NCBI GenBank assembly: GCA_004321925.1
Contig: SCQH01000096.1
Coordinates: 1 to 63,010, forward strand
DNA from: Nitrospirota bacterium
Lineage (GTDB): Bacteria > Nitrospirota > Thermodesulfovibrionia > Thermodesulfovibrionales > UBA6898
Length of the DNA stretch: 63,010 bases
Direction: 5' to 3'
Made by a program: the position numbers and the translations under genes. This document shows positions 48,050 through 51,208 of this stretch, piece after piece; the stretch's first letter is position 1, and each line of letters opens with the position of its first letter. Under the pieces are notes generated by a model that saw nothing but the letters and a program-made list of their open reading frames with translations, had not been told where the DNA came from and searched no databases.

Positions 48050-48817
48050 TCACGGAATATCGTACGAATCCAGCAGGCGAAAGAGTGCGCTGACGGCCGG
48101 TGAGTCTGCCGGCAGATCGAGGATCGCCCTGCCCTGCAGGTCATACTCGAAGATGTTCTGGTCCTGGGGAAGCATCGCCGCAACCGTCAGTCCCAACCCC
48201 CCGGCGTATTTTTTCAGTTCTTCCCCATCCCGGTCCGAAACGCGGTTGATGATGACCGCGTGCGCTGCAACGTCAAGGTTCAGTTCCTTCACCAGGTTCT
48301 GTATGCGCTCGGCGGTCTTGATCCCCCTGACCGACGGATCGCTCACGATCAGCAGCAGATCGACCTTATGCGTTGTCCGTCTGCTGAGATGCTCCATGCC
48401 CGCTTCATTGTCGATCACCACATACGCATAGGTCTCCGAAAGCTTGTCGGTATACTTCCGGATGATATTATTGGCAGCGCAATAACAGCCCGGGCCCTCA
48501 GGCCTGCCCATGACCATCAGGTCAAAGCCCTTTGCCTCGATGACCGACTGCTGGACCTGATAGTCAAAGAGCTGCTCCATCGCCATGCCGCCGGGGCGTT
48601 CACCGCCGCTGCGGATCGCCTCGAGCGACTCTTCCCTGAGGCCGCCGATCGTGGCATGGACCGGGACCCCGAGGGCCTCATTGAGGCAGGAGTTGCTGTC
48701 AGCATCGACCGCGAGCACCGGTCTGCCCTTTTTTTCCTTAAGGTATTTGACGGTCAGGGAGGCAACGCTCGTCTTGCCTGTTCCGCCCTTTCCCGCCAGC
48801 GCTATCACAAAAGCCAT
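48050..48817 (-). CDS. cooC: CooC-type CO dehydrogenase nickel-insertion ATPase
   Basis: MinD/ParA-family ATPase of 255 residues. The deviant P-loop GKGGTGKTS spans 9-17. The CooC-specific Cys pair C111-Y-C113 in GRPEGPGCYCAANN corresponds to the metal-binding CxC of Carboxydothermus CooC1. Further markers are VDADSN and VVIDNEAGMEHLSRRT. It would insert nickel into the C-cluster of carbon-monoxide dehydrogenase. No CODH/ACS gene lies in the window, so its partner is elsewhere. Ribosome site GAGGTG; TATAAT at 48846-48851 with no clear -35. Confidence 0.9.
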   Translation of the reverse strand: MAFVIALAGKGGTGKTSVASLTVKYLKEKKGRPVLAVDADSNSCLNEALGVPVHATIGGLREESLEAIRSGGERPGGMAMEQLFDYQVQQSVIEAKGFDLMVMGRPEGPGCYCAANNIIRKYTDKLSETYAYVVIDNEAGMEHLSRRTTHKVDLLLIVSDPSVRGIKTAERIQNLVKELNLDVAAHAVIINRVSDRDGEELKKYAGGLGLTVAAMLPQDQNIFEYDLQGRAILDLPADSPAVSALFRLLDSYDIP

Positions 48818-48949: not shown

Positions 48950-50491
48950 ATGCTTCTATATTATAAATTTATCCGGTCCGCAAAACAGCAGGGCAGCAAG
49001 CCTGCCTTTATCGACACCTCTGCCGGCAGGACGGTCTCCTATTCGAAGGCCCTGATCGCTACTCTTATCCTCTCAAAGAAGTTCGACCGGTTCGATACGG
49101 GATTTATCGGCATCATGCTGCCGACCTCCGCCGGCTGCGCACTTTCCTACCTCGGTGCACTCATGAGCGGACGGACCCCGGTCATGATCAATTACTCCAC
49201 CGGGATCGAAAGAAATATCCGTTATGCACAAAAGAGGTGCGGGTTCAGGACGGTCATCACCTCAAGGGCCTTCCTGGAAAAGATCAACTGCCCCCCACTG
49301 GACGACATGGTCTTCATCGAGGACATTATGGCAGGGGTCACCGCCACGGACCGTCTCAAGGCCGCTCTCCTGTCCAAGCTTCCGTTCACGTTCATACAGA
49401 AACGCATTTACCGGGGGCACCCCGACGATACGGTCGTGATCCTCTTTACGAGCGGCAGTGAGAAAGACCCAAAGGCAGTGCAGCTCACCCACCGCAGCAT
49501 CGGATCGAACATCGACAGCTTCTGCAGCATGGCGCAGGTCACTGACCGCGACATCATTCTCGCGAACCTCCCTTTCTTTCATGTCTTTGGCCTGACCGTC
49601 AATCTCCTGACACCGCTTCTGATCGGCATGACGGCCATATCACATGCCAATCCGCTCGATTATAAAATGATCTGCAGCATTGTCCGCGAACACAAGCCGA
49701 CCATCATGGTCGGCACCCCGAGCTTTCTGTCGGGATATGTCAGGAAGTCCGAACCGGGAGACTTCAGCAGTCTCAGGCTCGTTCTCTGCGGGGCGGACAA
49801 ATGCCCGGACGCCCTCAGGCAGGAATTTCTCGAAAAGCACGGGATCACCCTCTATGAAGGCTATGGGGCTACCGAAACCTCACCGGTCATCTCGGTCAAC
49901 CTCCCTGAAAAGAACAGACCGGGAAGTGTCGGGCAGGTATTGCCCGGAGTCGAGGTCAGGATAGAGAACTATGACACCGGAAATGACTGCGGGGTGGGCG
50001 AGGTCGGGAGGATCCTGGTAAAGGGCGACCTGCTCATGAAGGGCTATTTCGGCGACTTCGAGGAGACCTCAATGCGCATCAGGCACGGTTGGTACGATAC
50101 CGGTGACATGGGTTTCATGGACAGCAACGGGTTCCTCTGGCATTCCGGCAGGCTCAAGAGGTTCGTCAAGATAGGCGGGGAGATGGTCTCCCTGGTGAGC
50201 GTCGAGAACGTCCTTGAAAAACTGCTCCCCGAGGGCGCCTCCTGCTGCGTGGTCGAGGTCCCTGACCCGGTCAAAGGGGCCAGGATAATAGCCGCGGTCA
50301 CCCAGCCTCTGGATGAAAAACTTCTCCATAAGAAGATGGCCGAGCAGCTGCCGAACATTGCCCTGCCCCGCCAGTTCGTGGTGATGGAGGAACTGCCGAA
50401 GATGGGCAGCGGGAAGATCGATTTCCGCACCGTCACAGAAATGGTCCGGCACGTTACCGCACATAGTCCCGCTGCACAGAAAGAGAGATAA
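48950..50491 (+). CDS. Acyl-ACP synthetase / acyl-CoA ligase (AMP-forming)
   Basis: 513-residue ANL-superfamily ligase. P-loop FTSGSEKDPKAVQLTH (the SE variant common in acyl-ACP synthetases and the ligase half of Aas), YGATETSPVISVN, YDTGDMGFMD and the C-terminal lysine loop MGSGKIDFRT. Resembles the acyl-activating half of Aas, without the acyltransferase half. The carrier (ACP or CoA) is not determined. The ThyA-like gene starts three nt after its stop, so they are cotranscribed. Confidence 0.85.
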   Translation: MLLYYKFIRSAKQQGSKPAFIDTSAGRTVSYSKALIATLILSKKFDRFDTGFIGIMLPTSAGCALSYLGALMSGRTPVMINYSTGIERNIRYAQKRCGFRTVITSRAFLEKINCPPLDDMVFIEDIMAGVTATDRLKAALLSKLPFTFIQKRIYRGHPDDTVVILFTSGSEKDPKAVQLTHRSIGSNIDSFCSMAQVTDRDIILANLPFFHVFGLTVNLLTPLLIGMTAISHANPLDYKMICSIVREHKPTIMVGTPSFLSGYVRKSEPGDFSSLRLVLCGADKCPDALRQEFLEKHGITLYEGYGATETSPVISVNLPEKNRPGSVGQVLPGVEVRIENYDTGNDCGVGEVGRILVKGDLLMKGYFGDFEETSMRIRHGWYDTGDMGFMDSNGFLWHSGRLKRFVKIGGEMVSLVSVENVLEKLLPEGASCCVVEVPDPVKGARIIAAVTQPLDEKLLHKKMAEQLPNIALPRQFVVMEELPKMGSGKIDFRTVTEMVRHVTAHSPAAQKER

Positions 50492-50494
50492 CCG

Positions 50495-51208
50495 ATGGTC
50501 CCCTATTTTTTGAACGCCAAAACCATTTCAGACGCATGGTTTCAGCTCATTTATAATATCTTCGACCATTCCTATGAGCAGAAGATCCAGAAAGGGTCCT
50601 TCGAAAAGGAACAGTACCGGCTGCAATACCCCGGCATGGCGGTGTATATCGAACACCCCGGCGAAGATATGATACCGGTGATGCCGTACGGGTCAAGCAT
50701 CCCGTCCCCGACCACCATGGACTATATCGAGGATTATTTCGCGAATTATCTTATGGACCCTCAGCTTGCTGAAAATGAGACCTACAAATATGCCAGCAGG
50801 ATCCATAACCCCATGCCCAAGGGCGGGACACAGCTTGAGCGGGTCATCGATATGCTGAAAGAGACCCCGCTGACGAACCAGGCGATCGTCGAGATCGGCT
50901 CGCCTGATGATCATGACGTCTGCATCGGCAATGACGGCAAACTTGACCCGCCCTGCCTCAGGCTGATCGATTTCAAGGCCATCCCCGAAGGCGGCGAGCT
51001 GACGCTTACCGTGAGCTGTTATTTCAGGTCGTGGGACCTCTGGGCAGGTTTCCCGACGAACCTCGGCGGCATTGAACTGCTCAAGAGGTACGTTGCCTGC
51101 GAGGCCGGGCTCAGGAGCGGCCCCATGTTCGCCTACAGCGCCGGCGCACATATCTACGGCTACCAGGAAGACATTGCGCGCCTGAGGACCCTCAAGCCGA
51201 AGCAATAA
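50495..51208 (+). CDS. Thymidylate synthase-fold protein, methanogen-type-like
   Basis: 237 residues. The second half carries every key ThyA residue: C154 (DPPC), R178 and S179 (FRSWD), D181, N189 (PTN) and H219 and Y221 (AHIY). Relative to E. coli ThyA (R166, S167, D169, N177, H207, Y209) the spacing is identical at a constant offset of 12; Cys146 maps at offset 8. The N-terminal 120 residues do not look like ThyA and lack its usual DRTGTGT loop. This combination matches what is described for archaeal, methanogen-type thymidylate synthases linked to tetrahydromethanopterin. Uridine or cytosine hydroxymethylases are alternatives. Cotranscribed with the acyl ligase; ribosome site AGAGAG. Confidence 0.75.
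   Translation: MVPYFLNAKTISDAWFQLIYNIFDHSYEQKIQKGSFEKEQYRLQYPGMAVYIEHPGEDMIPVMPYGSSIPSPTTMDYIEDYFANYLMDPQLAENETYKYASRIHNPMPKGGTQLERVIDMLKETPLTNQAIVEIGSPDDHDVCIGNDGKLDPPCLRLIDFKAIPEGGELTLTVSCYFRSWDLWAGFPTNLGGIELLKRYVACEAGLRSGPMFAYSAGAHIYGYQEDIARLRTLKPKQ

Follow-up and report, generated by a model that had tools for sequence, protein, structure and literature searches.

Thymidylate synthesis is essential, and the usual account offers two solutions, ThyA with a dihydrofolate reductase (DHFR) or ThyX without one. The window, that is, the whole 63,010-nt stretch of DNA analysed here, carries a gene for a 237-aa ThyA-fold protein (50495-51208, + strand). The question is whether this protein makes dTMP for its Nitrospirota host and, if so, from which carbon and hydride donors. 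The host genome (3.23 Mb, 100% complete) holds a single PF00303 match, which is the 237-aa protein itself. The initial annotation had advised looking for a normal ThyA or ThyX alongside; a profile search of this complete genome found no ThyX (PF02511) and no other ThyA. Judged from gene content, the host appears to have no thymidylate synthase candidate other than this protein.

Sequence family and active-site residues

The start codon of the 237-aa open reading frame lies 3 nt past the stop of an acyl-ACP/acyl-CoA ligase-like gene (48950-50491, +), and GAGAG at 50483-50487 (+), 7 nt 5' of the ATG, is the probable ribosome-binding site. The N-terminus is kept in relatives. The two genes are probably co-transcribed, and we regard the ligase-like neighbour as no part of the thymidylate synthase function. 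Its cluster is found directly upstream in only two other loci (L062 and L064), both from congeners. The commonest neighbour is a CooC/MinD-like ATPase (48050-48817, - strand), which recurs in 15/38 loci of relatives in varying orientation.

Pfam recognises the protein over residues 102-224 (PF00303, E=4.1e-11, 43 bits against a cut-off of 24.3) and the predicted model aligns to ThyA structures, so the initial assignment to the ThyA fold holds. The ThyX domain (PF02511) gave no match in the protein. The canonical ThyA models stayed below their cut-offs (TIGR03284, 30.5 bits vs 108.35; PRK01827, 32.7 vs 325), and TIGR03283, the model of the methanogen thymidylate synthases, scored above every one of them with 79.5 bits over residues 5-226 (cut-off 174.55).

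We aligned the protein with E. coli ThyA (sequence checked against PDB 1aob), T4 gp42 and RB69 ORF048c. The E. coli residues C146, Y94, R166, S167, D169, N177, H207 and Y209 correspond to C154, Y99, R178, S179, D181, N189, H219 and Y221, and all of them are invariant in 128/128 members of a set composed of 37 sequences from the host's order and class, 79 of Desulfobacterota type and 12 viral ones. The presumed catalytic nucleophile C154 is positioned in DPPCLR (50954-50956, +), R178, S179, D181 and N189 in FRSWDLWAGFPTNL (residues 177-190; 51023-51064, +), and H219-I-Y221 at the deoxyribose site (51149-51157, +). Seven of these residues had been noted at E. coli spacing before; the correspondence is exact, with an offset of precisely 12 from R166 to Y209, it is extended by Tyr94, and it goes far beyond chance.

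Where E. coli ThyA has its phosphate-binding R126-R127, the alignment with the three proteins puts N128-Q129 (50876-50881, +), with N in 128/128 and Q in 127/128 members. Neither the W80/W83 loop nor the C-terminal tail that closes over the folate is present. Since T4 gp42, RB69 and the f3 proteins described below keep the RR pair, its loss is a mark of the family, which is a distinct ThyA subfamily that has N128-Q129 for R126-R127 and no W80 loop or C-terminal tail. We refer to it as the NQ-type, and found no description of it in the open-access literature. Compared with ThyA (PF00303, TIGR03284), it shares the fold and the equivalents of the catalytic Cys, Tyr94 and the other residues listed above, whereas identity in structural alignments is only 15-21% and the PF00186 (DHFR) partner is lacking. 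Because R126-R127, W80 and the tail are missing, the phosphate and folate contacts must differ from those of ThyA and activity is not to be assumed. R42 and R156 are likewise invariant in the 128-member set and, judged by conservation, they could act together with R178 as candidate phosphate partners. Inserts of variable length directly precede the helix leading to the N-Q segment in many Desulfobacterota copies (L117-L127, L129, L132 and L133) and in some viral ones.

Distribution of NQ-type genes and exchange with ThyX

Among 149 genomes of the host's order, 59 carry an NQ-type gene and 70 carry ThyX, with both in 3 and neither in 23; a weak match in G057, a different protein, was left out of the 59. 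Fisher's test gives p=2.7e-18 for NQ-type versus ThyX, with genomes taken as independent though they are not. Alternation within genera is better evidence for replacement than this value. Both states are present within the genera g1, g14, g34 and g69, the first of which is the host's own and includes a ThyX carrier (G035), so NQ-type and ThyX look interchangeable. The two would share the same apparent cellular role, and ThyX too is present in DHFR-less genomes, but it is unrelated to the NQ-type in sequence and fold. PF00186 DHFR was found in 0/149 genomes of the order (9 positive controls matched), and the swaps between ThyX and NQ-type come without a gain of DHFR. No conserved partner reductase stood out beside the gene in the loci of the host's order, the Desulfobacterota or the viruses.

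NQ-type copies in the order, present in at least 59/149 genomes, are 70-90% identical to the 237-aa protein, and the GC content of the gene equals that of the adjoining genes. A recent lateral transfer to the host, which the initial annotation had counted among the implications of this protein in a bacterium, is not indicated. Contamination was likewise considered and is disfavoured, as is recent transfer, by the identity across the order, the GC content and the recurrence of the ligase-like gene upstream in two congeners. One genome, G134, has an intact NQ-type copy and, on another contig (C16:25164-25682), a second, apparently broken one consisting of two abutting pieces with 66% and 79% identity to the 237-aa protein.

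Six of the 23 genomes with neither NQ-type nor ThyX carry instead a TS-like protein of about 490 aa, that of family f3 in the order. No ThyX, NQ-type or any PF00303 protein was found in 17/149 genomes, few of which have a listed completeness and where gaps in the metagenome-assembled genomes (MAGs) are possible; absence of ThyX alone is therefore no proof that another protein does its job. The f3 protein is a TS-DUF4346 fusion of the same order (L032:1219-2706, -; L034:922-2364, +; L036:934-2382, +), its gene adjoins one for a ParB-CE protein, and some of the genomes are without ThyX. Its TIGR03283-like TS domain scores 122-128 bits. Unlike the NQ-type, it keeps RR, has lost FRSWD and H-x-Y, and carries an MtrA-like part at its N-terminus and PterinBD-DUF4346 at its C-terminus, which makes it a different family. 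G015, a genome of family f3, encodes in addition a short TS-fold protein of 214 aa (L093:7887-8531, -), with 69 bits for TIGR03283 and CPRA for SRR.

The NQ-type extends far beyond the order. A genome scan gave at least 585 matching stretches in species genomes, at least 576 of them confirmed. The best 80 of these (at least 576) are from MAGs mostly named Deltaproteobacteria or Desulfobacterales, where we counted the names 'Deltaproteobacteria' and 'Proteobacteria' as Desulfobacterota. We examined 40 Desulfobacterota genomes with an NQ-type gene, which come without completeness values, but one of them, L177 (CP070673.1), is titled a chromosome. Of these 40, 38 have no ThyX and 39 have exactly one PF00303 match, while PF00186 DHFR is missing from 38 and present in 2. 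The gene often stands among replication genes, with gyrB directly upstream in 34 of the best 80 Desulfobacterota loci and dnaN at position -2 in 27. Another Desulfobacterota group has rlmN directly downstream (23 loci) and further on hisI, hisG and a YihA/EngB-like GTPase (rlmN and hisG named by Pfam, hisI and the GTPase from sequence reading). A published genome of Desulfotignum is described as lacking DHFR and having a thymidylate synthase (PMC4046663), which may or may not be of the NQ-type.

The loss of R126-R127 would also fit an inactive or regulatory ThyA remnant in cells that salvage thymidine. We find this hardly credible, since copies in different families of the order remain 70-90% identical, the catalytic set is invariant in 128 members, and 39/40 Desulfobacterota genomes keep the protein as their single PF00303 match.

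Relatives are also encoded on at least 161 viral contigs, next to genes for DNA polymerases, DnaB-like helicases, ribonucleotide reductase and 7-deazaguanine-type genes. Isolate phages and plasmids gave only distant ThyA relatives, with at most about 33% identity among the matches listed. Viral relatives often lie beside QueE-like, GTP cyclohydrolase and DpdA-like genes (L102, L112, L231 and L253; DpdA-like from sequence reading), which suggests 7-deazaguanine DNA modification in phages that carry them. Two viral DNA polymerases near the thymidylate synthase gene, of family B (L104:29-3274, +) and family A (L110:1689-4070, +), have an N-terminal uracil-DNA-glycosylase-superfamily domain fused on. 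Viral copies branch off at several places in the tree, so exchange of the gene between hosts and viruses is probable. Deep placement in this tree is unreliable, since its only outgroups are E. coli ThyA and the f3 proteins on very long branches.

Predicted fold

An AlphaFold2 model of the 237-aa protein, built on a 53-sequence alignment, had a mean pLDDT of 94.8 and a pTM of 0.92, and the structure prediction proposed in the initial annotation thus returned a TS fold. The top PDB matches in Foldseek were MilA and E. coli thymidylate synthases. VIA-align ranked the phage dCMP hydroxylase AfhB first (9iqu, Z 23.7, rmsd 2.5, 209 residues; 9iqc/9iqu, Z 23.1-23.7), followed by the CMP hydroxymethylase MilA (5jnh, Z 21.5). 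Thymidylate synthases came slightly below, at Z about 20 and rmsd 2.3-2.5 over some 200 residues spanning positions ~9-234. Since the structural match covers this whole span, the N-terminal half is predicted to belong to the TS fold despite its non-ThyA sequence. It had been called unrelated to ThyA, which is right for the sequence but not for the fold.

The similarity to AfhB and MilA (Z 21-24, rmsd 2.1-2.6, 203-210 residues) says nothing about function by itself. These nearest folds raise the alternative that the protein is a hydroxymethylase or hydroxylase of dCMP or dUMP for base modification, like T4 gp42, MilA or phage AfhB, and a new pyrimidine hydroxymethylase had been proposed before. 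The Trp of the W80 loop, which in ThyA guards the methylene intermediate, is lost, and phage relatives lie near the QueE, DpdA-like and GTP cyclohydrolase modification genes. However, N189 at the place of N177, the uracil-type residue, is conserved in 128/128 members, whereas T4 gp42 and RB69 have Asp at this position and keep R126-R127. Such an activity would moreover leave the cellular genomes without a thymidylate synthase, and it fits neither the mutual replacement with ThyX nor the gyrB-dnaN context. We therefore regard modification of this kind as quite unlikely.

Cofactor and proposed reaction

The initial annotation had likened the organisation of the protein to methanogen thymidylate synthases, with a methanopterin-like cofactor as one consequence. 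For an enzyme acquired from archaea and dependent on tetrahydromethanopterin (H4MPT), it speaks that TIGR03283 matches 53/53 members scanned with the lowest E-values among NCBIfam models, and that the short architecture is common to both, alignable over residues 5 to 226. This much of the comparison stood. The score of 79.5 bits is nevertheless far under the cut-off of 174.55, which 0/395 genomes of the phylum exceeded, and RB69 ORF048c, an AfhB homologue, reaches 68.5 bits with an equally full-length match. It is also short and without the ThyA C-terminal tail, and its type makes 5-hydroxy-dCMP in phage (PMC13390438). The short arrangement is therefore not specific to methanogens, and the model responds broadly to a short TS architecture. 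Experimental work on thymidylate synthases from archaea has been sparse (PMC9931769). The sampled family is bacterial and viral, with no archaeal member found, though the tree covered bacterial and viral sequences only.

The genome content points in the same direction. The gene for beta-RFAP synthase (TIGR00144), a marker of H4MPT synthesis, was absent from the host genome and not above the cut-off in any of 33 genomes, with 4 archaeal controls positive. The dihydropteroate synthase gene folP is present in the host (C35:17943-18713) and in 31/32 other genomes tested, one of these 31, G141, having only a fragment. In contrast to the methanogens, the host is thus a bacterium with folate synthesis and without the H4MPT marker, which makes a methanogen-type enzyme very improbable and leaves a methanopterin-like cofactor unsupported. 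In 9/38 loci a panB gene, whose product uses methylene-tetrahydrofolate, lies near the NQ-type gene, in many cases as its immediate upstream neighbour. With no H4MPT marker, folP present and panB nearby, folate is the likely carbon carrier.

Our preferred reading is that the NQ-type protein is a genuine folate-dependent dTMP synthase on the ThyA fold, which works in a DHFR-less folate cycle and is able to take the place of ThyX; we hold this to be very likely. It is supported by its status as sole thymidylate synthase, the replacement of ThyX, the replication-gene context, the invariant residues, the fold, and folP and panB. Counted against it are the folds of AfhB and MilA, which are nearer by Z than thymidylate synthases, and that no DHFR partner was found. 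We infer the activity, the cofactor, the hydride source and the role of the three arginines.

The overall reaction would be dUMP + methylene-pterin -> dTMP, with 5,10-methylene-tetrahydrofolate as the most likely carbon donor. By analogy with the roles in ThyA, C154 would attack C6 of dUMP for covalent catalysis, N189 would recognise the uracil, H219 and Y221 would hold the deoxyribose and D181 the pterin. Phosphate binding would be remodelled through N128-Q129, with R42, R156 and R178 as candidate partners, and the lid would differ from that of ThyA since there is no W80 loop and no C-terminal tail. The folate could supply the hydride, as it does in ThyA, and the resulting dihydrofolate would then be reduced by a non-PF00186 enzyme; alternatively, the hydride could come from another donor.

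The second option is a sub-case of the preferred reading, in which the ThyA scaffold takes the hydride from NAD(P)H via a flavin or other reductant and returns tetrahydrofolate, so that no DHFR is needed. PF00186 is missing from the 149 genomes of the order and from 38/40 Desulfobacterota, ThyX is swapped without a gain of DHFR, and the folate-closing C-terminus and W80 loop are gone. The closest solved fold is also a phage enzyme with the TS fold whose PDB titles (9iqc/9iqu) list FAD and dCMP as ligands, an indication that the TS fold can accommodate a flavin. On the other hand, the 9iqc protein is a monooxygenase acting on dCMP with only 18% identity, the homologous RB69 protein carries Asp where ThyA has N177, and we identified no flavin motif in the NQ-type protein. 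Bacteria with ThyX and without DHFR are known, and the folate makers among them must still reduce some dihydrofolate (PMC1971073). A reductase of this sort, outside PF00186, may suffice and is the simpler answer, so we consider the flavin or other-donor route rather doubtful.

In a great many uncultured bacteria the NQ-type seems to be the sole thymidylate synthase (at least 576 stretches, beside at least 161 viral contigs), and it lacks residues held to be central to ThyA, in cells without the DHFR of ThyA. If it is active, either the Arg pair and the Trp loop are dispensable or a new supply of hydride exists. Should the ThyA fold indeed work here without oxidation of tetrahydrofolate, this would be a third route to dTMP, with a flavin or some other donor as the reductant, and it would account both for the replacement of ThyX without DHFR and for the disappearance of the Arg pair, of the Trp loop and of the tail that closes over the folate. 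For annotators, the NQ-type family means that 'no ThyX, no canonical ThyA' should not be read as auxotrophy.
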